A stretch of 33,285 nt of DNA. Origin: a virus. The stretch is taken from positions 1 to 33,285 of IMG/VR virus record IMGVR_UViG_3300043137_000396. One strand, given 5' to 3'. Positions 3,347 through 16,009 of the stretch are shown here, piece after piece. Numbering within the stretch: position 1 is the stretch's first letter; each line of letters starts with the position of its first letter. The notes beneath the pieces were generated by a model. It was given only the letters and a program-made list of their open reading frames with translations. It did no database searches and was not told the origin of the DNA. Position numbers and translations under genes: made by a program.

Positions 3347-3991
3347 TTATTTCGTGATATATGTTCTATTTAACATTGTGTGATTATGATCAGTTGGACC
3401 CCAATCACCATCTGGGTGAAATGCAATAACAGTCATTTCATCTTGTGTTGTCATAAAACGATGTTGTTCTCTTTCTTCAATACAAAACATAATACCTGGT
3501 TTTAATTCAATTAGTTCTTCTTCATATGCTCTTTTAATACAAGCATAACCTTTGCCTTTTACCACTACACCAAGTCTAATACTTGGATGAATATGATAAG
3601 TCTGTTTAATGGCAACTGGAAATTGTAATAAGTTTAATGAAGGATCTCCCATTCGAGGAGGATACACCAATAAACTGTCCGAACAAGAGTCAATATAAAC
3701 TAAGCGGCCACTTTTTTCAATTGGTCCACCAATAGTATTTTGCCCTTTGAACCCAAGACGTGCGAATATGTAAACTTCTCCAGTAGTTCTAATAGAATCA
3801 CCTTGTCCAGTCCAATAACAGAAATATTGTCCTTCTACAGCTACGCTTCCATTTGGAAATGTTACTTCGCCAGACATGATATAACCATATAAAGTAGAAT
3901 ATGGTTTAGAATGATATAATGCGTTTACTATTTTTTCAGCAAAACAAGGGTACATTGTATCTAACGCATCGATCTTATTTTCAATAATCAT
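3347..3991 (-). CDS. Cupin-domain protein, 214 aa
   Basis: The C-terminal half has a cupin signature: 'YHIHPSIRLGVVVKGKGYA' (His133 and His135 as metal-ligand candidates), 'IELKPGIMFCIEEREQHRF' (His177), then 'VIAFHPDGDWGPTDHNH' (His192). The N-terminal half (about 30-100) also looks beta-rich and may be a second, degenerate cupin barrel. Cupins bind a metal and can be isomerases, oxygenases or sugar/ligand binders, so the reaction cannot be named. Its start codon overlaps the stop of the ATP-PPase gene by one base, making it the last gene of the enzyme cassette 7895-3347 before virion genes resume. An accessory modification enzyme is an inference. Confidence 0.75.
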   Translation of the reverse strand: MIIENKIDALDTMYPCFAEKIVNALYHSKPYSTLYGYIMSGEVTFPNGSVAVEGQYFCYWTGQGDSIRTTGEVYIFARLGFKGQNTIGGPIEKSGRLVYIDSCSDSLLVYPPRMGDPSLNLLQFPVAIKQTYHIHPSIRLGVVVKGKGYACIKRAYEEELIELKPGIMFCIEEREQHRFMTTQDEMTVIAFHPDGDWGPTDHNHTMLNRTYITK

Positions 3992-5112
3992 TACATCATC
4001 TCCGAAAAAGTATTTGTTTCATTCCAGTATTGGCTATCGGGATAACCATTCGTAAATGTCATATCATCATTTAATAACATAACAATTTCTTTTTGTTTAA
4101 CTATATTTGTTAAACTACCAATCTTAGGTTTTTTATAATAAGATTGATCGCCATTAAAATCTAAAATATAATCTTTTGCAATATATTTTACATTGTCTAA
4201 AGATTCTCTTACTAAATTATCTGGATTATTTAATGACCACAGTTGGAAATCTTCTGGACAGAAAAACGTAGTATAGTTATCTTCTAATTTAATGTTGCTT
4301 CGATTTTTTGCATATGGCAATATGCGCACATAAACTGACTGCCATTTATTTGTAAAATTAATCCACCAAAAAAACTTATATACATTATCAATAGGAATAG
4401 GAGCAGCATTACAAAGATGCTTAAACATTTGCCAATAATACGGCGCATATTTTTTATATTCATCTTGCAATTTCATAGTCATCCAATCAATGATATCTCC
4501 AGAAGCTTGTTCTAATGGAGTAAACAAATAATCAAATGAACGATATGCAATAAATTTAGCTACTACTTGAGAACCAAATAACTGATCTGCATTTTCACCA
4601 GAAATTACAATATAGTCATCGTTTCCTAAAAAATATGGAAATCTATAACTTGAAATGCATTCAAACTTTTTAATAATATAATCGTTATAAAAATTAGGAT
4701 TTTCTAATATGCTATGATCAGTTAATAAAACAACAACGTGATTTCTTAAATCTTGCTCAGAGCAATTTTTTAATAATGCACATATAATAACAGTGGAATC
4801 AATCCCTCCGCTATACATTACAGCAATCTTACGATTATCTCGTTTAGCTTTATCCATCAATTCAATGGCTCTATCATCACAAATATCACTAAATGATTTA
4901 GTGAATGTTCTCATTTCAGGCATTTGAAGATGTGGTAATAAAGTGGTTTTTAGTGGAATACTAAATGTGTTAGTTCTATCAATAGAGGTAATGTTGCTAG
5001 AAAACAATTGGAAATAACCACCAAACGCATGACCGCCTGGAATTTGATTGCGCTTATCGTGATATGCTTCGTTTACGAAGATATCGTAACTATTATAAAA
5101 TATAGTGCTCAT
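3991..5112 (-). CDS. Asparagine-synthetase-like ATP-PPase lacking the glutaminase domain, 373 aa
   Basis: The ATP-pyrophosphatase (PP-loop) motif SGGIDST is at residues 101-107, preceded by a hydrophobic strand (IAVMY). 'ISGENADQLFG' (about 170-180) matches the asparagine synthetase C-terminal motif 'SGEGADELFGG'. There is no N-terminal Cys2 glutaminase domain; the first 95 residues are short and unrecognised. Such stand-alone enzymes adenylate a carboxylate and form an amide or related bond (asparagine synthetase, beta-lactam synthetase, lasso-peptide cyclase). Substrate unknown. It overlaps the upstream gene by 4 nt and the cupin gene by 1 nt. A modification role within the Cys-rich/radical SAM cassette is inferred. 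Confidence 0.8.
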   Translation of the reverse strand: MSTIFYNSYDIFVNEAYHDKRNQIPGGHAFGGYFQLFSSNITSIDRTNTFSIPLKTTLLPHLQMPEMRTFTKSFSDICDDRAIELMDKAKRDNRKIAVMYSGGIDSTVIICALLKNCSEQDLRNHVVVLLTDHSILENPNFYNDYIIKKFECISSYRFPYFLGNDDYIVISGENADQLFGSQVVAKFIAYRSFDYLFTPLEQASGDIIDWMTMKLQDEYKKYAPYYWQMFKHLCNAAPIPIDNVYKFFWWINFTNKWQSVYVRILPYAKNRSNIKLEDNYTTFFCPEDFQLWSLNNPDNLVRESLDNVKYIAKDYILDFNGDQSYYKKPKIGSLTNIVKQKEIVMLLNDDMTFTNGYPDSQYWNETNTFSEMM

Positions 5113-5843
5113 AGTGAATCGCCGTACTTTGTGCTTTCAGCTTTAAATTGTTCTAAAATAATACCTAAATCTTCAAGAGTAGTTTGTTGTTTAACAAATG
5201 AAGTATATTTTAATCTAAGTGTTTCATTTTCTGCTAAAAACGATGCACGCGTTTCATATTTGAATTTAATACGTTTAGAAGCTTCTACAATATCCATACC
5301 AACTAAGTCAGCATAACCAGTTACAAATGGATATTTACAAATAGGATCTTCAGTAATTCCTTTTTCAAGGATTTCTTTTGCTTCTAAATATTTTGCAAAA
5401 TAAATGTGGTTTTGACCTTGAGCAGCTTTAATTTCTCTACGTCTATTCATATCTAAACGACGATGAATAACATCTAATACTGCAGCTTTTTGAGAGATCA
5501 GAATAAAATCATATAGTTGCTCTAATGATTCGATATTAGGAGAATCTTGCCAAGCTTTACCATCTTCTGTAACACGAATTCTCCAACACTTATTCTTTTG
5601 GAAATATAAGTTTGGACGTTCTTCCATTCCCACTAACTGAAATGTAAAAATATTAGATTTATCAAATTCAGCTAAAGCTTTTACACTTGCAGAATAGTTT
5701 GCAACAGCCAATAATCTACCAGCTGATATCAAAATATTAGTATTAGTGTTTTTGAATGACATGTCTACTACACGATCTTCTGGTCTTGGCATAATTGGCA
5801 CAAGACTATCGTAGTAGTCATTAATTTCTTGATCTGTTAGCAT
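5109..5843 (-). CDS. Phage tail-module protein with helical tail-assembly-like C-terminus, 244 aa
   Basis: The N-terminal half is unrecognised. The C-terminal ~90 residues read 'KYLEAKEIL', 'KYPFVTGYADLVGMDIVEA', then 'ASFLAENETLRLKYTSF'. This follows a pattern common in small phage tail-fibre assembly and tail proteins: 'K--EA--------YPfl-aeA---G----eaA--I--------a-IE--R'. The role may be fibre assembly or coupling of the neighbouring enzymes to a virion substrate; this is not demonstrated. The start overlaps the stop of the 98-aa gene by one base and the end overlaps the ATP-PPase start by 4 nt. Confidence 0.6.
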   Translation of the reverse strand: MLTDQEINDYYDSLVPIMPRPEDRVVDMSFKNTNTNILISAGRLLAVANYSASVKALAEFDKSNIFTFQLVGMEERPNLYFQKNKCWRIRVTEDGKAWQDSPNIESLEQLYDFILISQKAAVLDVIHRRLDMNRRREIKAAQGQNHIYFAKYLEAKEILEKGITEDPICKYPFVTGYADLVGMDIVEASKRIKFKYETRASFLAENETLRLKYTSFVKQQTTLEDLGIILEQFKAESTKYGDSL

Positions 5844-6139
5844 TAGAATATCGGAGGCCTTATATCTCTGATGATATAATCATCAATTCTGGTTTTAATA
5901 TCTTCTATGATTGCATCATGACGATCTAAATTCTCAATCACTGAAGCTTCTAATATAGTTACAATTTTAACAAACTTTTCAGAATTAGCTTTATTAGTAA
6001 GTAAACATACAATTGAAACTCCATCTACACCAACTAAATCTCTAAATCTTTGTTTTAAGACTTGATGATATCTAACTTGAGCAACGTGCTCAGTTTGTCT
6101 AAGACGATTTACTAACGTTAATAAATTAGATGTTTCCAT
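5843..6139 (-). CDS. Small cassette protein, paralogue B, 98 aa
   Basis: I do not recognise the family. It is clearly a paralogue of the next gene upstream: 'HVAQVRYHQVLKQRFRDLVG' aligns with 'YVAQVRCNKILRQHYKNIVG', followed in both by 'V/E-DGv-I-CL', and both end in an acidic/hydrophobic helix ('IDDYI' against 'IDEYI'). It is predicted mostly helical with one beta pair, with no signal or membrane segment. It starts 2 nt after the paralogue stops and overlaps the 244-aa gene. The position between a radical SAM enzyme and an ATP-PPase suggests an accessory or substrate-recognition subunit; this is an inference. Confidence 0.7.
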   Translation of the reverse strand: METSNLLTLVNRLRQTEHVAQVRYHQVLKQRFRDLVGVDGVSIVCLLTNKANSEKFVKIVTILEASVIENLDRHDAIIEDIKTRIDDYIIRDIRPPIF

Positions 6140-6141
6140 AA

Positions 6142-6462
6142 TTATTCGCTATCTGGTAGTTTTGGAAGAACATCGTTTTCAATATATTCGTCGATCTTTA
6201 ATTTCATGCTTTGCAGACAATTCTGATATTGCATAGGATCATCCCACACTTCTTTAGATAAGATATCTTCAAACTTCAAATACTTGTCTTCGCCTGACTT
6301 CACCTGGACTAAACATGCAATGTATAATCCATCTTCCCCTACAATATTTTTATAATGTTGTCTTAAAATTTTATTGCAGCGCACTTGTGCTACATAAGGA
6401 ATAGTTTTATATAAGCGAATTAGTTCTGGTAAATTTTGACTTTCTATATCAATTAATATCAT
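6142..6462 (-). CDS. Small cassette protein, paralogue A, 106 aa
   Basis: It starts MILIDIESQNLPEL and contains the block 'YVAQVRCNKILRQHYKNIVG' and 'GEDGLYIACLVQ' shared with the 98-aa downstream protein, so the pair arose by tandem duplication and diverged. Its start codon overlaps the last base of the radical SAM stop codon (TAATG), implying translational coupling to that enzyme. Small partner proteins of radical SAM enzymes often bind leader peptides (RRE-type winged helices), but the pattern here does not let me assign that fold. Function unknown. Confidence 0.7.
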   Translation of the reverse strand: MILIDIESQNLPELIRLYKTIPYVAQVRCNKILRQHYKNIVGEDGLYIACLVQVKSGEDKYLKFEDILSKEVWDDPMQYQNCLQSMKLKIDEYIENDVLPKLPDSE

Positions 6463-7895
6463 TACTCTTGTACCCTTGCTTGTGTATAAACTTCTACATT
6501 ATCTAGTACTGTTTTTTCACTTACTGCAACAATAGGGATAATTCTTTTAGAAGTTTCTTCTTTATGACTTAATATTGTGCCCCAAATATCTTTTCTCTCT
6601 GAAGGCAATTCATTACTATTTATGTACAATGGAATATAGCCTGATGTCATCTTTTCAAATGCTAATGCAAAAAGTGCAATATTATCGGAGTATGCATTAT
6701 CACACGTTGTTTTCCAAAATTTGCCATCTAAAAACATACATGAACCTTTACACATATGTAAAACAGGACATTTTGAACATTCTTCTCTATTAGCCCAATG
6801 AGTAGCAGATTTTAATTCGACATTATCATAATCATCTAAGTTACCACCCAAATGAGATTCACCATTCATGGCAGTTTCAACAGCAGATACATTTTGGCAT
6901 GTTAAAACATTACCTTTCATATCAATCGCTAAAACATGTTGATCGTCCATACCACACTTTTGACCAAGACCAGAAGCAGGTTGTTGATTCATAACAGAAT
7001 TAGTAAATCCATCTATTTTTTGAAGAATAGTTCCAAATCCAATATAACCATTATTTGATCTAATATCATTAAATGAATTTCTTCTAAACTCAAAATGTTC
7101 TTGTTTAGTAGATAAAGAATTATTCATGCCATCTAAATCATATGCATCAACTAAAGCTCCTTCTCCTAATGGAACTTGAGGATCTCCAGTAAAATTAATA
7201 AACCAATCGTGGATAGCTTTACGATCTTTATTTTTAGAATTTAACATAGAATTAAAACTAATTCTACCTTGTGGTTTCATTATCTTATAAAATTCTAATA
7301 CGATCTTCTTTGCTTCTTCGTCTTCGAATGGATCAGGTCCTCTAACACTTTGTCCAGGTCCATCATGACTAATAGAAACGTAAAATCCCATATAATACAA
7401 CCACGCACAAATATCGCGCGTTAAAATAGAACCGTTTGTGATTACAGAAAATTTAGGTCTATTTTTCCAATGAGAAAACTTTTCCATAATAGCTTCTGCA
7501 AGAGGCTTCATAGTTTTCCAATAAACGAAAGGTTCTCCTCCCCAAAATTCTACTGATAATCCTTGTTGCTCAGTAAACTCTAACACTTCCAACTTTTTCA
7601 TAAAGTCTTCAATGTCTTTTTTATTTGTTTCTGGTGGACGACCTACAAATTTTTGAGAACAATAGTCGCATGAATAATTACACGAAAGACCCATTTGGAT
7701 CTTTAGCTTTGTAATATTTTTGGATTTCTTTAATGGGGATTTTTTAGAAAATGGTGTAGATATATGATCGTGTGTTTTTTTATTTTCTACACTAAATATA
7801 AAACCATCTTCAGAAGATAAAACATTTTTTACATTATCATAAAAAAATGTTTTTCTGTCTTTTTCACTGCGCTCTGCTAAAATTTCAAATATCAT
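6462..7895 (-). CDS. Radical SAM enzyme with SPASM-type C-terminal cluster domain, 477 aa
   Basis: The radical SAM motif CxxxCxxC is at residues 72-79 (GLSCNYSCDYCSQ) and would bind the [4Fe-4S] cluster that cleaves S-adenosylmethionine. 'VEFWGGEPFVYW' is the usual SAM-binding GGEP motif. The C-terminal part has SPASM-like cysteines: 'GQKCGMDD', 'VLTCQN', 'EECSKCPVLHMCKGSCMF' and 'TTCDN'. This architecture is that of peptide/protein-modifying enzymes (anSME, sactipeptide and ranthipeptide/SCIFF maturases). The Cys-rich gene lies immediately upstream, 21 nt away, and is the obvious candidate substrate. A TATAAATA-like element (GATAAATA) lies in that gap. Reaction and substrate are inferred; the family is secure. 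Confidence 0.92.
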   Translation of the reverse strand: MIFEILAERSEKDRKTFFYDNVKNVLSSEDGFIFSVENKKTHDHISTPFSKKSPLKKSKNITKLKIQMGLSCNYSCDYCSQKFVGRPPETNKKDIEDFMKKLEVLEFTEQQGLSVEFWGGEPFVYWKTMKPLAEAIMEKFSHWKNRPKFSVITNGSILTRDICAWLYYMGFYVSISHDGPGQSVRGPDPFEDEEAKKIVLEFYKIMKPQGRISFNSMLNSKNKDRKAIHDWFINFTGDPQVPLGEGALVDAYDLDGMNNSLSTKQEHFEFRRNSFNDIRSNNGYIGFGTILQKIDGFTNSVMNQQPASGLGQKCGMDDQHVLAIDMKGNVLTCQNVSAVETAMNGESHLGGNLDDYDNVELKSATHWANREECSKCPVLHMCKGSCMFLDGKFWKTTCDNAYSDNIALFALAFEKMTSGYIPLYINSNELPSERKDIWGTILSHKEETSKRIIPIVAVSEKTVLDNVEVYTQARVQE

Positions 7896-7911
7896 AATAT
7901 CGCCTTAAATA

Positions 7912-7919
7912 ACTATTTA
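7912..7919 (-). promoter_or_regulatory. Late-promoter-like element GATAAATA
   Basis: The minus strand reads GATAAATA, one mismatch from the T4 late consensus TATAAATA. It overlaps the stop codon of the Cys-rich gene and lies about 17 nt before the radical SAM start at 7895. It could give the modification cassette its own late transcription. With a mismatch and a short leader, the assignment is tentative. Confidence 0.4.
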
Positions 7920-8327
7920 TCCACCACCACCATCAGCACATGCACACGCACATGCACAAGCACATGCACAATTATAGCTGATTTCAGTTTGATTACAATT
8001 ATATGTACAAGCACAATTACAATTTGGTTGTAACCAAGCTTGTGTATCACAATTCGTACAATTCACTGCACTAGTAATAGCACAATTCGTGCATTGAATA
8101 TTTCCGCAATTACAGTTTGCAATACAATTGCCGTTAGCGCAATTGCCTTCTGAATTTTTTTGGAAATACGCAAATCCATAGACGTCATCAATTTCGTTCG
8201 TTGGAAGTCTATTTGCAGGTTTTACGATTGATTTAACCCACGATAGGGAAGGTGAAAATGAGGTTGGTTGCCCAGCCTCATTTGCGATATCTCTAAGAGT
8301 AATTAATCCAGTTGTTTGTAAAGTCAT
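7917..8327 (-). CDS. Cys-rich virion/RiPP-precursor-like protein, 136 aa, 18 Cys
   Basis: Residues 1-60 contain 'LITLRDIANEAGQ' and 'DDVYGFAYFQ', resembling the N-terminal peptide of small phage virion proteins ('i-l-DI--EfG---p-slS'). Residues 63-130 hold 18 cysteines, mostly as NC and AC: positions 63, 68, 72, 74, 79, 82, 90, 93, 103, 105, 107, 111 and 120-130 at every second residue. The protein ends in ADGGGG. The six-fold Cys-Ala run uses GCA, GCT and GCG codons, so it is maintained at protein level and is not a DNA microsatellite. It overlaps the S74 fibre stop by 4 nt and precedes a radical SAM/SPASM gene. A modified Cys-rich fibre-tip peptide or a metal-binding protein are the main options. 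Confidence 0.85.
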   Translation of the reverse strand: MTLQTTGLITLRDIANEAGQPTSFSPSLSWVKSIVKPANRLPTNEIDDVYGFAYFQKNSEGNCANGNCIANCNCGNIQCTNCAITSAVNCTNCDTQAWLQPNCNCACTYNCNQTEISYNCACACACACACADGGGG

Positions 8328-9415
8328 AATTTAGCTTCAATAGCTTTTACTCTATCTGTCAATTCATTAATAGCTTGTAGAAGAAGACCTCCCATATTTC
8401 CATATGAAACTGAGAGCATTCCATTTTCGCCAACGCGAATTAATTCTGGAATTTTATTTTGCACTTCTTGTGCTACAACACCAACACTACGTTCATTAGT
8501 ATCTATAGATGTGTAATAGATGCCTCTTAATTGATTAACAATATCTAAAGCACCTTTGATAGTTTCAATGTCTTTCTTAAGACGTATATCTGAATAACCA
8601 CCAACGTTACCAACCATAACCAAATTACCACCGGGTTGAATCTCTCCACTTTTTACACCGTTATTTGTAAAAAATATAGAACCATCCCCACCCCAATAAA
8701 TTCCAGTATCTTGTGCTCCATCAGATGAAAATCCAAGACTTGGGGCAGTAGCAGAACCATTACCGAGATATACTCTACTTCCAACTGTTAGATTGGCAAT
8801 AGTAATATCTGTTGAGCTATTAATCTTATTACCATTAATAGATGTAAGCCAACTTGGATTATCATATCCTGCTTCTTCACTTACTGGTGTAAAACCTAAT
8901 GCTGTAGTAACGTCTGTATCTTCTAAATCAAAACCTTCATAAATTCTACCATCACCATCTACTGTAACCTTTGTATAAGTTCCAGGTTCTACTCCGGTAG
9001 GATTAAGTTGTAATTGTCCCGTTGCATTTGAAGATCCATCAAATACTACATCCCATGTTGCATCTCCAGTGATAGAAATAATACGACCATTACGAAGTTT
9101 TGTAGCTGTATTTGCATTACCATTTAAGTTTCCAGTAACGTCAGCAATTAAATCACCAGCTAATGTTAAATTTCCATCTAAATCTAAGATTAACTCAGCT
9201 GAATCGCCTTGATCGACGTTAATTTGAAATGTATTACCAAAAGTCGTGATAGTACCATCAACTAGCGCGTTACTACGCACTTCGTTAATTGCTGCAACTA
9301 AATTTGTTGAAGTTGTTTGAAGAGAATCTGCATCACCAATGGTAGAACCAAGTTGATTAGTCTTAACTCTCCATTGTTCGAATGTATCTTCTAAACTTAC
9401 GTTTATGACAGACAT
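8324..9415 (-). CDS. Tail fibre with C-terminal S74 intramolecular chaperone, 363 aa
   Basis: The C-terminal ~92 residues are a peptidase S74 (endosialidase-type) chaperone: 'YSDIRLKKDIETI' (Ser275 with Lys279/280 as the self-cleavage dyad), 'RSVGVVAQEVQ', 'VSYGNMGGLLLQAINEL' and a terminal coiled coil. Such domains trimerise a beta-helical fibre and then cleave themselves off, probably before Ser275. Residues 1-270 are beta-rich repeats of the phage-fibre type ('LDGNLTLAGDL', 'GRIISITGDATW'). A trimeric tail spike or fibre is inferred. Its last codons overlap the start of the Cys-rich gene (ATGA), tying the two together in translation. Confidence 0.88.
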   Translation of the reverse strand: MSVINVSLEDTFEQWRVKTNQLGSTIGDADSLQTTSTNLVAAINEVRSNALVDGTITTFGNTFQINVDQGDSAELILDLDGNLTLAGDLIADVTGNLNGNANTATKLRNGRIISITGDATWDVVFDGSSNATGQLQLNPTGVEPGTYTKVTVDGDGRIYEGFDLEDTDVTTALGFTPVSEEAGYDNPSWLTSINGNKINSSTDITIANLTVGSRVYLGNGSATAPSLGFSSDGAQDTGIYWGGDGSIFFTNNGVKSGEIQPGGNLVMVGNVGGYSDIRLKKDIETIKGALDIVNQLRGIYYTSIDTNERSVGVVAQEVQNKIPELIRVGENGMLSVSYGNMGGLLLQAINELTDRVKAIEAKL

Positions 9416-9426
9416 TTACTTCTCTC

Positions 9427-9666
9427 TTATTTTTGGACATGTGCTAATATCTGACTTAGCATTTGCTTAATGTCTTGAACTTCCTCTTTAAGCTCTTTAA
9501 TGTCCTGTGTGTTTTGTTCAGTTTCTTCTCTGGATTTAAGCAATGCCTTACGATGCTTTAAATATGCATTTCTAGAGCTATCATCTGTATTTACAATGGC
9601 ACCAGAATGTAGGTCTCGGTAGAGACCTACTTCATTTTCAACTTTAACAGCTTTATGCACAAGCAA
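9427..9666 (-). CDS. Small coiled-coil virion-module protein, 79 aa
   Basis: A 79-aa protein starting MLVHKAVKVENEVGLYRD. The second half ('RKALLKSREETEQNTQDIKE' onward to 'ILAHVQK') has strong heptad character and should form a coiled coil. The first half ('VGLYRDLHSGAIVNTDDSSR') resembles small conserved proteins of T4-like marine phages located beside the large structural protein. The start overlaps the end of the 2118-aa gene by 14 nt, indicating coupled translation. Probable baseplate-fibre connector or assembly factor; the function is inferred from position only. Confidence 0.65.
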   Translation of the reverse strand: MLVHKAVKVENEVGLYRDLHSGAIVNTDDSSRNAYLKHRKALLKSREETEQNTQDIKELKEEVQDIKQMLSQILAHVQK

Positions 9667-12600
9667 TTACTCGTAATTCTTTTACGCGTGGTACTTGTGC
9701 GCTATTACCAGATTTGAACACTAATTTAACAACAACACCATCAAATTCTGCAAGATCTGTCAAATCGTATTGTACATCTACAAATTCATCTGGATTAGAA
9801 GTTTTCTTAACATTTTTTGTAGGCGTTGTAGCACGAACAAATGAATGTTGAGAGATATCTCCGTTTGTACCAGTTGGAATTAGTTTATACCAAACTTCAA
9901 CATCTGAATCAGTTACTGCAGGAATATTAGCTGAGAACATAACTTTCAAGAATGTTGAAGGTTGTTCTAAGTTAATTAAACGAGTTAAGTACTTAGATGT
10001 TGCAGTGCCGCCAATTGGTACACTTTCATCAATGAAATTATCTTTCAATGTGATAGTAGTATTAGCTGGAGATTCAGTTTCAAATGCATCGTAATTTGTC
10101 GTGATAGATGAACCATCAGCAGCAACAGCAGTTACTAATACTGGAAGTGTTGTATTGTTATTTGTTGTGCCGCTAACAGATACATACTTGCCAACTGTGA
10201 TAGAACGAACAGCAGCTCTTGCAGTACTTGGAACATAAATTGTTCCTGGATTATTTTCATCAAATGTGAAACCTGAAATAGCATCTGCGATAATTATATC
10301 GTCTAAGCCATCAACGTTTTTAGTAACATACGTAAAGTTATCAACTCTATTTTTAATCGTTGCAACAGATAAGCGTGAAGTATCAATGATTGGAGATAAT
10401 GCAGAATTATCTGTATTCAATCTTGCAACAACCTTTAACGATTTTGAACCATCTAAAGAAGTAGCAGTTGCTTCGTTAATTGCAGAAACTACTTGTTGTG
10501 ATGAAGTAAAATATACGGTTTCATTAGGAATTACACTAACCGGTTCTGTTGCAAAATTATATGCTGTATCAGTAGTCAACATTTCATATGACAATGTTGT
10601 GTCAGAGAATGTTTGTGATTGAGTAATTAGTTGAGCTGCGTCCATTGGAACGTTTTCAGAAACAACGATATCAGTACCACCAACAAATCCTGTAGCATCA
10701 GCATCTGTACCAGTATCGATAACATATGAATCTGATTCTGGATTACTAATGATAAATTCACCATTTAAACCAGAAGAAGAAGTTGTAATAATACCGTTAT
10801 AGTCTCCATCAGCAACGTTAGAAATAATTACAGTTGAACCAGATGGCATACCATGATTACGATGTGATACACGTACTTTAGATGAATCTAGCGTTGTCTT
10901 AAATGGATTTGCATCTAAAACAGCAGGAGGAAGAATATCATTAGTAAATGTTGCAATACCTTCTGTGTTTGTATTAAACTCGGCACGATATACTGTGAAC
11001 TTCAAATCTTGTTCTTGATTAGCAGTCCATGTAGAAGCGTTTTGTGATTTAAACAATACACCTGCATATGGTTGCTCAGAAATGAAACGTTCTGTTCCAA
11101 TATTCTTTTCGCCAAGTTGTGAAATCCAAACACGATAATTATTTGAATCAGATAAAAGAACGATACAGTATTCAGTCTCGTCTTGAACATAAACTGGAGA
11201 TTCAAATGTGAATGTAGTTGGTACAGTAGCATCGTTAGATGTTTGAATTTGATCTGGGTTTAATGTAATCTTAGAGAAAGGTAAAATACCTGGACCTGGA
11301 TAACCGTTTACAGACTCACGAATTTGTAAGTTAACAGGAATGTTTGCATCTTTAGTAGAGAAGAAAATATCAACTTTAGTTAAGAATGCACCGCCCTTAG
11401 AACCAATCATAATAGTTTGGGCAAGTGGGTCGTACCAACCAGTATCACGAACAATACGTTCTGGAGAGAAGATCTCTTGTGTACGTTGTTCTGATGCAGG
11501 ACGTGTAACAATTTCAGCATTACGTACAGCATTAACTGAACGTTGTTTAGTTTCTAGTGTACCTTGTGCACGATATGTGCCACGACCTTGTGTTGTAAAG
11601 TCTTGACCACCAGTTGTACTATCACTCAATTTAAATTCACGAATACCTGTGCGGAAACGCATGCTGTCAGTATTTGGAATTGAGAAAATACCAGCTAAGT
11701 TACCGTTAAAGTTAGTTACTAAATTTGCGCCTTGTATAGCAGTAGCAATAGCTCCTGAACCTTGGATAATATATTCTGCTCCTGAAATAGAACCCTTAAT
11801 AATATCTCCGCCTTGGAATGTGCCAGTTACGTTTAGAACATAAACACCTTCTGCACCAGTATCAGTAGTTTTTTCTTTTAATACTGCAACGCCACGAGCT
11901 GGAGATGTTACTTGTGAATTGTACGTTGTACCTCCACGTGTTTTAACGTAAATTACATCACCCTTATTGAATGATACTTCTGGTTTACCGCCAACTTGAC
12001 GACCAATATCATTAGCAGCTGCACCAGCATTAGTTTCTGTGTCAAACTCTAAAGAACCATTTTGTGTAATTGGAAGACGAGTTGCAGGAGTTACATATGC
12101 TTGAATTGATGCATCATCAAAGAATGGATTTAATTTTGTATTTGGTTTTAAACCTCGACATACAAATAATAATTCACGAGCACGAATATATGGAATAACA
12201 GCAGTTTGAAGTACTTTGTCATCGATTACTTCATAATCAACTTTAGGTACAACAGATGTTGTAATACCTGAACGAGATTGACCAACAGTAGTAGCTTGTG
12301 TTTGGAATGTCAATACACGAGCACCTGCTGCACCATTACCAAATGATGTTGCGTCACCACCAATTGCACGAAGTTCAGCAGCAGTAAATGTACGACGATC
12401 CATCCAACGACCAGCGCCAAGACCAAAGTTTGTGCTATCAAATCCACGTGTAACAACTAAACGATCAATGTTACGTGTTTGACCTGTCCAAGTTGTTTGC
12501 CATGCATTCCATACTGTACCAAGAACGCCTTGGTTTTCAAGTTGTGTTTGTACAGCTGAGAAGTTACCTTCTACGTTTGTGATAATATCTGGACGACGAT

Positions 12601-15600
12601 CTGTTTCAAACCAATCATCAGATGGTGGATTTAATGACATTTGACCCAAGAATGTAAACACAGCAAATGGGTTAACGTTCTCAGTACGCGAAGCAAATGG
12701 TTGAGAAATAAACTTAAGATGGCTATATGGTAATGAAATAATATCACCAGTTAATTGATAACCGTCTGCTACTCTATCTCCAGGAATTTGATTTTCTTCT
12801 ACAAGATTTACGTTATCCATTGTATAAAATGGACGTAATTCTTGTGCAGTCATATCAATAGAACAACGATAATCAGTAGATGCTACGTCACCTAAGTCTT
12901 GACCTTTAAAGTTATCAACAATAAATCCATTTTTGAAACGCTCTAAGCCAACTTCATCTTTGATTGTAAGAGATTTTGTTTCGTTTTCTAACAATGAAAG
13001 AGCAGTGTAATATTCTAAGTTTTCAATACGCTTGTCTAACTTACCAATATCACGCATTGTGTAACGCTTAGTGTCAATAGTTTCAATCGTAACAGAACCA
13101 TCGCTTGGAAACGCTGTGTATGGAGATACGTTTAATTTAGCAAGCATCATTCCAAGCACAGGATCTTTTGGTTCTTGCGGTGCAGTGCTTGCTACGCCTG
13201 AAACAGTAAAGAATCTACCTTCGATATCAAGCGCCAACTTATCGCGACGAGCTAGATAATGTGAATAACTTGCAATTGTTTCGAATCCAAGTTTTGGCAA
13301 TTCTGAAGGAGATGCACCTGTGCTGCTATAACCTGTACCAGCATCATTGATACGTGGACGGAAATCCATTACGTCGGCAAGAGCAATCATGCCACCAGGA
13401 GGTGTGAAATATGGAATATTTTCAAATGGAATATCTGAGTATGAGTCTACTGTGAAGTAGTCACCAGCAGTACCAGTTGTGTGGTCAAAATAATCAAAGA
13501 TTACACGAACAGCACCTTTTGGAACTGGATATCCAGGTTTACGTGTGATTGTAGCCACATCATAGTGTGTTTCACGTTGACCATTGTCAAATGTATACCA
13601 ATCTGTGATATCAGTTGTTTCAGCTGGATCAGAAGACGCAGTGAATCCGCTATTTTTCATACGAATAGCAATGATGCGATATCCGTCAGCTTTAGCAAGA
13701 GATAATGTTAATGGTTGAACTGCACCAATAGATGTAAAATCTTTAACTGCATTGCTAATAAGTGTTTTCTTCTTTTCTTGAGCAATTGTACCAGCCTTAC
13801 GAACTGGAGCAAATACTGTATATGAAGATGATTGTGCTAATCCTGTAATTTGTGCATCAGCACCATTATTGATTAAATTAATAGCAGTAGGATTAACTGG
13901 TCTGCCAGTAGAACGATTGATTACAACGAATTCATTCTTATTAGCAGCTGGATTAAATTCAGTACCAAGAGTCGTTGAACCTGATGCTGCTCCAACAGAG
14001 ATAGTCAATGATGTTTGACCTGAAGAAGTAGAACCAGTAAACTTTTGTGTGGTTGTATATGACGTTGCAAATGTTGCATCATTATCACCGCCACGAACTT
14101 TACGAATAAATGATTGCGCAAGCGGGAAAATCAATCCAGTAAAACTTGGATCTTGGATTTGTGTCATTACACGCTGGAATGTTTTACCAGTAACAGTGCC
14201 ACTAAATGCAGTTGCAATAGCAAGAGTTGTATTATTAGTAATAGAAGTAATTCTGCGAGTTTCTAATGCTCCAGCAGAATCTTCTACACGAATATAATCA
14301 CCAACTTTTAATTCTGTTGTAAATTTTGAACCAACACCAGTTACTGTTGTAGATGAAGCGCCAATTGTACCGCTTAATGTAACATAAATTTGAGAAACAT
14401 CAGCAACAAAATTGCTTAGTGTTGTACCTGAATCATAATATAGTTGTTTAACATCACGCTCAAATGTATATCCTTCTTCTATTTGAAGATCGAACAAATA
14501 CGCTCTATAAACAGCAGAAGCTCCTGGAGTACCTGAATCATATTCAAATGCACGTAAACGTGCTGTACCGATAGCATTACCAGCACCAGAAGCTTGAGAA
14601 TTTGTAGATGGAGTTAATTGATCATATAATGTAACAGTTGGATATGTTGTACAATCTGGTACACCATATACGTTTGAAACATAAATGAAATTGCCGTATT
14701 TAATATCAATAGAGTCACCATCAATACGTACATATTCGCGCGACTTAGGAACTTCTAAAAATTCAGTTGCAATTTTTTCAATTTCATAACCTTGAACATA
14801 GCCTTTACCAGGTTCAACAGCAACTGCGAATGAAGATTCTGAACCACCATTTTCTGGTGCTTTATATCCACGATTAAACGAAGGACGAGGAGTATAGTTC
14901 CAATCCATATTACTATCTGAATAGATTTGATATGGATTAGTTTCAGAAAATGTAGTATCTGGTTCAATTGTACCAGATGTAGCTGTTTCCATAGCAGTGA
15001 AATAATTATCACCACTCTTTACAACATCGCCTAAACGATATTCTGTAAATGCTTGCCATGGACCACGATCATTATTACGATGCTCGCGAATAGCTAATTT
15101 AAAAGGACGAACTGTATAATTACCAGATTCATCATATGTACGACGCGCTAGTGTTTTAGCTAGTTCAGAATATGTAGATGTTTCTACTTTACTCTTTAGT
15201 TCTCCATCTTCAATGCGTAGTAATTCAATAAAGTTTTCGTCTAATTCAGATTCTAAAGTTAATTTAGCGAAAGTTAACAATAATTGATAACGATGTGCAC
15301 CTGGAGCATTTTCATTTGGTGAACCATTGGCATTATCATTTAATGTAGCATCAGAATTAGATGTTACAATGTTTTCTGTTGCCAATAGACCAACACGATA
15401 TGTCGGCGTATTGCTATATTTTGCAAGAATGATTGTTGCAGATTCAACTTGAACAAATTGGCTTTTAATAAAGTAAATGCCAGATTGTATAGAAGCAATA
15501 GAACCTAAACCAACAGGAGTATTAGCTACAGGGAGAATTTGAAGAGTATATTCTTCACCATCGATAACCGTTGTTAATAATTCTTCTGCAGAAAATGTTT

Positions 15601-16009
15601 TTGTTTCTTCGTCATCAGAAGAGGAAACATATCTAACAAATAATGTAATTGGATCTGTATCTTCTTCAGTTGCATATGTAAGAACTTGAGCTTGTACACC
15701 ACTAGCTCCAGTAATAGTTTTTCCTACTAAATCAGAAAGAATAGTGTCAATTTCTACACCATTCGTTTCAGATTCAATTTTTAAATATACAATTTTTGTG
15801 TCAATCGCAGTTTGACCTGGAATGACCATCGAACCTTCTTTAAATAGGTGTAAACCTAAACGTTCGATTTGCGTTTGTAGATAAGTTTGTAATTGATTTA
15901 ACTCTCGTACTTGCAACGAAACTCCTGGACGAAACAACATACGAAGATACTTCTTCGTTTCATCGTAATCGTCATGATAAGGAGCTTGGGAAAAAATCTT
16001 CAGTGACAT
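9653..16009 (-). CDS. Giant baseplate/tail structural protein, DUF4815 type, 2118 aa
   Basis: The N-terminal ~60 residues carry 'YLRMLFRPGVSLQVRELNQL' and 'LQTQIERLG', the hallmark of DUF4815 phage structural proteins. Near the middle 'CRGLKPNTKLNPFFDD' and further on 'DTGWYDPLAQTIMI' with 'GGAFLTKVDIFFSTKD' are typical of the very large structural proteins of T4-like aquatic phages. Several stretches ('GDIIKGSISGAEYIIQG', 'ITGASGVQAQVL') repeat a small module also present in gp8 and gp53 here. At this place in T4 lie gp9/gp10/gp11/gp12, so it probably replaces peripheral baseplate/fibre-attachment proteins; that is an inference from gene order. Single uninterrupted frame. Confidence 0.85.
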   Translation of the reverse strand: MSLKIFSQAPYHDDYDETKKYLRMLFRPGVSLQVRELNQLQTYLQTQIERLGLHLFKEGSMVIPGQTAIDTKIVYLKIESETNGVEIDTILSDLVGKTITGASGVQAQVLTYATEEDTDPITLFVRYVSSSDDEETKTFSAEELLTTVIDGEEYTLQILPVANTPVGLGSIASIQSGIYFIKSQFVQVESATIILAKYSNTPTYRVGLLATENIVTSNSDATLNDNANGSPNENAPGAHRYQLLLTFAKLTLESELDENFIELLRIEDGELKSKVETSTYSELAKTLARRTYDESGNYTVRPFKLAIREHRNNDRGPWQAFTEYRLGDVVKSGDNYFTAMETATSGTIEPDTTFSETNPYQIYSDSNMDWNYTPRPSFNRGYKAPENGGSESSFAVAVEPGKGYVQGYEIEKIATEFLEVPKSREYVRIDGDSIDIKYGNFIYVSNVYGVPDCTTYPTVTLYDQLTPSTNSQASGAGNAIGTARLRAFEYDSGTPGASAVYRAYLFDLQIEEGYTFERDVKQLYYDSGTTLSNFVADVSQIYVTLSGTIGASSTTVTGVGSKFTTELKVGDYIRVEDSAGALETRRITSITNNTTLAIATAFSGTVTGKTFQRVMTQIQDPSFTGLIFPLAQSFIRKVRGGDNDATFATSYTTTQKFTGSTSSGQTSLTISVGAASGSTTLGTEFNPAANKNEFVVINRSTGRPVNPTAINLINNGADAQITGLAQSSSYTVFAPVRKAGTIAQEKKKTLISNAVKDFTSIGAVQPLTLSLAKADGYRIIAIRMKNSGFTASSDPAETTDITDWYTFDNGQRETHYDVATITRKPGYPVPKGAVRVIFDYFDHTTGTAGDYFTVDSYSDIPFENIPYFTPPGGMIALADVMDFRPRINDAGTGYSSTGASPSELPKLGFETIASYSHYLARRDKLALDIEGRFFTVSGVASTAPQEPKDPVLGMMLAKLNVSPYTAFPSDGSVTIETIDTKRYTMRDIGKLDKRIENLEYYTALSLLENETKSLTIKDEVGLERFKNGFIVDNFKGQDLGDVASTDYRCSIDMTAQELRPFYTMDNVNLVEENQIPGDRVADGYQLTGDIISLPYSHLKFISQPFASRTENVNPFAVFTFLGQMSLNPPSDDWFETDRRPDIITNVEGNFSAVQTQLENQGVLGTVWNAWQTTWTGQTRNIDRLVVTRGFDSTNFGLGAGRWMDRRTFTAAELRAIGGDATSFGNGAAGARVLTFQTQATTVGQSRSGITTSVVPKVDYEVIDDKVLQTAVIPYIRARELLFVCRGLKPNTKLNPFFDDASIQAYVTPATRLPITQNGSLEFDTETNAGAAANDIGRQVGGKPEVSFNKGDVIYVKTRGGTTYNSQVTSPARGVAVLKEKTTDTGAEGVYVLNVTGTFQGGDIIKGSISGAEYIIQGSGAIATAIQGANLVTNFNGNLAGIFSIPNTDSMRFRTGIREFKLSDSTTGGQDFTTQGRGTYRAQGTLETKQRSVNAVRNAEIVTRPASEQRTQEIFSPERIVRDTGWYDPLAQTIMIGSKGGAFLTKVDIFFSTKDANIPVNLQIRESVNGYPGPGILPFSKITLNPDQIQTSNDATVPTTFTFESPVYVQDETEYCIVLLSDSNNYRVWISQLGEKNIGTERFISEQPYAGVLFKSQNASTWTANQEQDLKFTVYRAEFNTNTEGIATFTNDILPPAVLDANPFKTTLDSSKVRVSHRNHGMPSGSTVIISNVADGDYNGIITTSSSGLNGEFIISNPESDSYVIDTGTDADATGFVGGTDIVVSENVPMDAAQLITQSQTFSDTTLSYEMLTTDTAYNFATEPVSVIPNETVYFTSSQQVVSAINEATATSLDGSKSLKVVARLNTDNSALSPIIDTSRLSVATIKNRVDNFTYVTKNVDGLDDIIIADAISGFTFDENNPGTIYVPSTARAAVRSITVGKYVSVSGTTNNNTTLPVLVTAVAADGSSITTNYDAFETESPANTTITLKDNFIDESVPIGGTATSKYLTRLINLEQPSTFLKVMFSANIPAVTDSDVEVWYKLIPTGTNGDISQHSFVRATTPTKNVKKTSNPDEFVDVQYDLTDLAEFDGVVVKLVFKSGNSAQVPRVKELRVIACA

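Follow-up and report, generated by a model that had tools for sequence, protein, structure and literature searches.

A Phage-Encoded Radical SAM/SPASM Enzyme Paired with Cysteine-Rich Tails of Fibre Proteins: A Probable Thioether Maturase

Introduction

The formation of thioethers by radical SAM enzymes of the SPASM type is known chemistry, and it extends to a protein that is not a RiPP, the substrate of QhpD. In RumC1, thioethers join Cys3 to Asn16 and Cys5 to Ala12 (PMC8172795), and PapB tolerates CX0-6D spacings (PMC9413430). The auxiliary cluster Aux I of the sulfatase-maturating enzyme anSME is held by Cys255, Cys261, Cys276, and Cys330, and an Aux I site open to the substrate has been proposed for sactisynthases with seven SPASM cysteines and shown for CteB (PMC6231123).

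In a study of pelagimyophages, the region that follows VrlC is named the host recognition cluster, and the part of that paper on which we draw notes radical SAM cassettes there without linking them to fibres (PMC7029224). Our searches of the literature, which covered open-licence papers, returned no description of virion proteins modified by a radical SAM enzyme, and it appears to be new that a phage should use such an enzyme on the tip of its own fibre. The locus described here, together with its relatives, points to a SPASM maturase that is encoded by the phage, is dedicated to its own fibre tips, and probably crosslinks their Cys-rich C termini by thioethers.

Results and Discussion

Organization of the Locus

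In the window (the whole stretch of 33,285 nucleotides analysed here, taken from an IMG/VR record), T4-type families of the baseplate wedge and hub are represented among the genes, as is a gp2-like DNA end protector. These genes are followed by the 2118-aa phrog_358 protein, the short S74 fibre, the Cys-rich gene, and the radical SAM gene (Table 1). This order agrees with that of the region after VrlC, as far as it is described in the part of PMC7029224 referred to above, and the gene order in the same part suggests the name VrlC for the 2118-aa protein.

The S74 fibre protein also matches the PHROG family of the long tail fibre distal subunit (3e-31), and its stop codon is joined to the start of the Cys-rich gene by an ATGA overlap. 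The sequence-only reading of this DNA had placed the Cys-rich gene 21 nt before the enzyme and had coupled it to the fibre gene, and both points are confirmed; the gap holds an AAGG-type site. A further overlap, TAATG, connects the stop of the enzyme with the next start. The small adjoining genes at 5843-6139 (98 aa) and 6142-6462 resemble each other and are without profile matches; further along, a cupin-like gene (3347-3991) adjoins the asparagine-synthase-like one.

Table 1. Positions in the window of the genes and elements discussed in the text.
Feature	Position	Strand	Evidence or remark
VrlC-like structural protein, 2118 aa, phrog_358	9653..16009	-	PHROG match; heads the fibre module
Tail-fibre protein, 363 aa, C-terminal S74 intramolecular chaperone	8324..9415	-	Pfam PF13884, 1.5e-11
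Putative fibre-tip protein rich in Cys (18 in 136 aa), the proposed substrate	7917..8327	-	Sequence; alignment of the 19-member family
Cys-rich C-terminal region, residues 63-136	7917..8141	-	xNCxNGNC...NCNCGNIxCxNC...NCNCACTYNC...NCACACACACAC
Intergenic gap, 21 nt, AAGG-type ribosome-binding site before the ATG of the radical SAM gene	7896..7916	-	
Radical SAM/SPASM enzyme, 477 aa	6462..7895	-	CxxxCxxC and SPASM Cys; profiles
106-aa protein, overlaps the stop of the radical SAM gene	6142..6462	-	Groups with the 98-aa gene 5843-6139
Asparagine-synthase-like PP-loop protein	3991..5112	-	Recurs near the radical SAM gene in 16 of 64 clusters

The Cys-Rich Protein

All 18 cysteines of the 136-aa protein lie within its last 75 residues, the first of them being residue 63. 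The chain ends in NC-AC-AC-AC-AC-AC (codons TGT GCA TGT GCT TGT GCA TGT GCG TGT GCA TGT GCT), the six strict Cys-Ala steps being encoded with three different Ala codons, so that the run is not a pure DNA microsatellite. The length, the clustering of the cysteines, their alternation with Ala, and the varied codons had all been described from the letters, and the open reading frame 8327-7917 on the minus strand confirms them. Cys accounts for 0.55% of the residues in ten other proteins of the window, taken as the reference set, and the binomial chance of at least 18 Cys in 75 residues is about 1.6e-24. Both genes are under purifying selection, with dN/dS of 0.023 for the Cys-rich gene and 0.044 for the enzyme in the comparison of the window with locus L004, and the most conserved columns in the alignment of the 19-member family (A2) are those of Cys, Asn, and Gly. 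A low-complexity artefact is ruled out by the varied Ala codons, by dN/dS values of 0.02-0.15, and by the retention of the Cys columns in relatives whose DNA differs.

AlphaFold2 finds no fold in the Cys-rich region (pLDDT 41), and the 136-aa protein gave no match to Pfam or PHROG profiles. We assign it as a fibre protein, on the strength of its coupling to the fibre gene and of a homologue, L015, in which the corresponding protein is fused to S74. A tblastn search with this protein against cultured phages gave no match, probably due to divergence, short length, and low-complexity masking.

Proteins that Carry the Tails

The Cys-rich tails occur in two forms. Form A, to which the window belongs, is in most cases encoded by a gene of its own; it has at least 14 Cys and follows the pattern GNCNNGNCxxNCNCGNIxCxNC...NCxNCDxQxWLQPNCNCACTYNC...NCxCxCxC. 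In Form B, a fibre-like protein ends in NCNC or ACNC, the exact ending xCNC-stop being present in 51 of 55 non-redundant short-tail sequences. The residue between two cysteines in CxC is Asn in 85% of cases in the short tails, and Asn (52%) or Ala (38%) in the window type.

In the relatives, the Cys protein itself bears fibre-type sequence or a fibre-maturation domain. One carrier (L163) matches the tail-fibre family phrog_9851 at 1e-223, three others (L079, L158, and L001) likewise match tail-fibre families, and some lineages have three short Cys-tailed fibres in tandem. Tails that are not terminal usually precede an auto-cleaving domain, which is Hint in JWF and 2-1 (both Achromobacter phages), L020, and L056, and S74 in L015; in L016-L018 and L047, the C-terminal domain that comes after the tail matches neither Pfam nor PHROG. 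Hint and S74 domains cut themselves in their established families; if they do the same here, cleavage would once more leave the Cys tail as the C terminus. Since the tails are found either at the C terminus or just before auto-cleaving domains, their likely location is the distal tip of the fibre, and we expect the tail to be part of the virion.

Fibres of this kind are also present in cultured phages (L001:5799-7250, which is gp28 of Achromobacter phage JWF, and L002:5808-7250). In JWF gp28, identified by reading the gene neighbouring the radical SAM gene, NCNCDCNCNCS directly precedes the Hint domain, and the enzyme is encoded 0.7 kb downstream. Two queries with short-tail fibres against cultured phages gave no full-length match. 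In several other carriers (L041, L110, L177, L064, and relatives), a His-rich stretch lies just before the Cys tail, for example HLDTNHHFDPHHHHNNCTNCNCNC, which suggests a metal-binding fibre tip.

Pairing of the Enzyme with Cys-Rich Tails

The association was followed from both sides. The enzyme-first set comprised 47 IMG/VR loci and the two cultured Achromobacter phages, which form 32 clusters at 90% identity; 30 of them have an xCxCxC open reading frame no more than 5.5 kb away on the same strand, as do 28 of the 28 clusters whose upstream sequence reaches 4 kb or more. The tail-first set came from a DNA scan, blind to the enzyme, for the patterns NCNCNC-stop and NCNCACNC-stop. The motif truly ends an open reading frame in 97 of the resulting 132 loci, the 35 out-of-frame ones serving as controls, and the enzyme family is encoded on the same strand in 64 of the former and in none of the latter. 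Most of the 33 true loci that lack the enzyme break off about 1 kb or less beyond the tail gene. Where the sequence extends at least 3.6 kb downstream, the enzyme is found in 47 of 51 motif loci, an unfiltered rate in which the remaining four belong to two unrelated non-fibre families (184 and 202 aa) set apart after inspection. The proteins of these families, of 202 aa (L073, L103, L122, L138, L156) and 184-190 aa (L070, L111, L117, L130), end in NCNCNC and are not fibre-like, and there is no radical SAM gene in the nearby sequence available for them.

Because many loci are fragments and several derive from the same phage lineages, they were clustered. A nearby gene with an alternating-Cys tail accompanies 61 of the 64 pooled IMG/VR enzyme clusters at 90% identity and 35 of 37 at 70%, and the three 90% clusters without it have at most 1.1 kb of upstream sequence. 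Over the 64 clusters, the pairing is seen in phages of different types, in either gene order, and with each of the two kinds of substrate. The short Cys-rich gene adjoins the maturase, as expected of a RiPP precursor, in the window and in most of the 22 clusters with a window-type substrate, while in short-tail loci the enzyme is mostly 0.8-4 kb away from the tail gene rather than adjacent. On a quick enzyme tree with some long branches, Forms A and B switch only twice, compared with 18.2 times for shuffled labels, and none of 500 shuffles was as low, which argues that enzyme and substrate type evolved together.

Chance pairing is ruled out by the blind motif scan and by the enzyme-first counts. 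The sequence-only reading would have been refuted by a lack of conservation of the pair in related phages; the pair passed this test strongly in both directions, and the pairing of enzyme and substrate is well supported by the sequences. The tip could instead be unmodified and rich in disulfides or metal, with the radical SAM gene being an unrelated auxiliary metabolic gene that happens to reside in the fibre locus. Fibre loci of marine myophages do carry many cargo genes, radical SAM cassettes among them, as noted in the part of PMC7029224 cited above. However, the association described here is nearly complete in both directions over 64 enzyme clusters, whereas DctP, halogenase, and similar cargo genes occur in just 10-16 of the 64, and we therefore consider such a coincidental arrangement very improbable. 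Direct action of the enzyme on the tail is strongly favoured.

The Radical SAM/SPASM Enzyme

The enzyme matches Pfam Radical_SAM (3.4e-9, 37.5 bits with a cutoff of 29.5) and the NCBIfam SPASM model TIGR04085 (34.9 bits with a cutoff of 27). The site of the radical SAM cluster, CxxxCxxC, is formed by C72, C76, and C79, and the SPASM cysteines are C314, C333, C373, C376, C382, C386, and C398, spaced as CX13GX4C, CX2CX5CX3C, and C. The profiles above cutoff and the Cys pattern thus show that the enzyme had been correctly recognized from its letters as a radical SAM protein with CxxxCxxC and SPASM-type cysteines. Each of the 73 distinct full-length homologues retains the AdoMet motif together with seven SPASM cysteines, no more and no fewer, in the pattern CX9-15GX4C, CX2CX5CX3C, and C, and apart from these ten no cysteine is invariant among the aligned enzymes.

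In an alignment with anSME, Cys255, Cys276, and Cys330 have counterparts in the phage enzyme, but Cys261 of Aux I has none, and no Cys is present between the equivalents of C314 and C333 in any of the 73 enzymes. Aux II has its four ligands, the final one, C398, being assigned by the SPASM pattern. Judged by Cys count, Aux I would possess a site open to a substrate Cys, as in the thioether-forming sacti- and ranthisynthases, and a non-Cys ligand could fill it in the phage enzyme.

The AlphaFold2 model of the enzyme is confident (pLDDT 90), and Foldseek places anSME (anSMEcpe) first (E 1e-13, TM about 0.5), followed by CteB (E 5e-12, TM 0.55). The N terminus of the model (residues 1-60) consists of β strands only, and no RRE-like domain is visible in its predicted secondary structure. 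Such a domain is common, though not universal, in RiPP maturases; with none visible, the model does not account for recognition of the substrate, which counts against the reading of the phage enzyme as a maturase.

Among NCBIfam models, the best match of the window enzyme is PapB (NF047865, 5e-21, 75.3 bits with a cutoff of 340) and the second is QhpD (TIGR03906, 6.6e-19, 67.9 bits with a cutoff of 453), and both models match all 36 aligned enzyme members. No RiPP maturase equivalog of NCBIfam (PapB, SCIFF, RumMC, CcpM, and others) reached its curated cutoff. As the matches to PapB and QhpD are far below theirs, the phage enzyme appears by its sequence to form a new subfamily with thioether-type features, outside the named families. 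In a word search of 85,000 prokaryote genomes, which reaches close relatives only, one relative was found, on a 7-kb MAG contig. The two closest curated families are thioether maturases and, together with the seven SPASM cysteines, they suggest that the product on a modified tail is probably a thioether.

The structural match to anSME raises another reading, in which the enzyme would oxidize tail cysteines to formylglycine and thereby place reactive aldehydes at the fibre tip. The SPASM architecture is common to both enzymes, and the enzyme of JWF is annotated as an anaerobic sulfatase-maturating enzyme. This reading is nonetheless quite improbable, since the Cys261 equivalent of Aux I is missing in 73 of 73 enzymes, the anSME model TIGR03942 gives 45.6 bits with a cutoff of 349, and the signature CxPxR of anSME substrates is not seen in the tails shown.

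Other Enzymes near the Pair

Several other enzymes recur next to the pair, and the modification may accordingly be more complex. Genes resembling 2OG-Fe(II) oxygenases form five groups, present in 17, 11, 7, 6, and 4 of 64 clusters; four of the five were checked in Pfam, where some members match weakly. These genes (L049:6154-7992, L033:7292-7936, L096:10214-10738) often end 0-16 nt before the start of the radical SAM gene, and their products are candidates for the hydroxylation of fibre residues. A gene of the tryptophan-halogenase family (L155:8486-9697, PF04820, 6.5e-29; also in L008, L010, L011, L014, L019, L021, L085, L123, and L191) lies 0.7-1.9 kb downstream of the enzyme in 10 of 64 clusters, and a fibre residue may be the substrate of these phage halogenases. 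In 8 of 64 clusters, the pair is accompanied by another radical SAM gene, which is larger and weakly matches a B12-binding family (L008:5996-7522, with relatives in L010, L011, L015, L017, L019, L021, and L066), a possible further modification enzyme. The fibre may bear additional modifications. A DctP-type (TRAP) solute-binding gene just downstream of the radical SAM gene in 12 of 64 clusters (L078:5655-6602) is odd for a fibre locus.

The oxygenase, halogenase, and B12-type radical SAM neighbours, the weaker matches of the enzyme to the cyclophane maturases YhhB, AmcB, and FxsB, and the His-rich sequence of some tails, which suggests metal binding, would also suit a different product on the tail, namely C-C or cyclophane links, epimerization, or modification of Asn, with the cysteines left at the fibre tip as ligands of metal or Fe-S clusters. 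The usual partners in cyclophanes are aromatic residues, which are rare in the tails, where Cys is preceded in the great majority of cases by Asn or Ala, and seven SPASM cysteines are a better fit to ligation of a Cys substrate. A product of this other kind is therefore unlikely, if less so than formylglycine.

Proposed Mechanism and Its Significance

The sequence-only reading had suggested that the phage may crosslink a Cys-rich fibre-tip protein, and this is supported by the conservation of the pair, by the fibre nature of the carriers, and by the thioether-type features of the enzyme. Crosslinking by thioethers, the reading that we prefer, could proceed as follows. The enzyme would bind the flexible tail during synthesis of the fibre, with a Cys of the tail probably attached to Aux I; a 5'-deoxyadenosyl radical would then take a hydrogen from a neighbouring tip residue, Asn and Ala being the likeliest, and the Cys sulfur would couple to the carbon bearing the radical. 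Repeated along NCNC or ACAC, these steps would yield at the host-facing end of the fibre a compact, thioether-crosslinked knob, resistant to reduction and to proteases, and the modified product is expected to stay in the virion. By analogy with the Cys-Asn and Cys-Ala links of RumC1 (PMC8172795), the likely acceptors are Asn and, in the tail of the window, also Ala. In loci of the L015 and JWF type, the auto-cleaving domain would trim the C-terminal side and not a leader, and no transporter, exporter, or peptidase family was found among the recurrent neighbours examined near the pair. As to function, we can only guess at a role in host contact or in stability of the tip.

With somewhat less assurance, we lean towards a broader picture, in which dedicated radical chemistry matures the fibre tips that face the receptor into thioether-crosslinked knobs, in T4-like myophages, in siphophages of the JWF type, and in many metagenomic lineages; in some lineages, 2OG oxygenases, a flavin halogenase-like enzyme, and a B12-type radical SAM enzyme would act alongside. 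If true, RiPP-type radical chemistry would enter virion assembly as a virion-decoration system without a described counterpart, and would reveal a way in which certain phages strengthen the structure that touches the host. It would also account for an extensive family of radical SAM genes in phages, most often labelled as sulfatase maturases or kept among the auxiliary genes, and would provide a new set of enzymes working on the simple, repetitive substrates NCNC and ACAC. For the cultured Achromobacter phages JWF and 2-1, shifts of -2 Da are predicted on the fibre-tip peptide.

Comparison with Known Systems

The described systems each share some features with the phage pair and differ in others. 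The enzyme anSME oxidizes Cys to formylglycine with no crosslinking, and it has eight SPASM cysteines and a fully ligated Aux I. CteB, the SCIFF maturase (PDB 5wgg, 5why), has a similar fold and a similar CX..GX4C spacing, but carries an N-terminal RRE where the phage enzyme has only short β strands, and its open Aux I site is seen in the structure, whereas the phage enzyme is likened to it by Cys count. AlbA, like the phage enzyme, is of the seven-Cys SPASM type. In sactipeptides (RumC, thuricin, subtilosin), the Cys sulfur is joined to an alpha carbon, with Asn and Ala among the acceptors; these, however, are secreted antimicrobial peptides, and the RumMC and GggB models match the phage enzyme weakly. 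With PapB and its substrate PapA (freyrasin, a ranthipeptide), a repetitive precursor receives several Cys thioethers of short range, while the phage tails are mostly NCNC or ACAC with few Asp, and no exporter or peptidase is seen nearby.

Maturation by S74 or Hint domains concerns the same fibre proteins, and these domains directly follow the Cys block in L015, JWF, 2-1, L020, and L056, but the steps involved are proteolytic or those of a chaperone. To our knowledge, no phage fibre maturation of either type involves radical modification. QhpD (with QhpC, of quinohemoprotein amine dehydrogenase) is a SPASM radical SAM enzyme that forms intramolecular Cys thioethers in a structural, non-antibiotic protein. 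Its substrate is a subunit of a bacterial enzyme with Asp or Glu as acceptors, whereas that of the phage enzyme would be a fibre tip with Cys alternating with Asn or Ala. Compared with a RiPP precursor in the narrow meaning, whose leader is cleaved and whose peptide is secreted, a structural protein modified in the manner of QhpD would be the better analogy for the phage pair.
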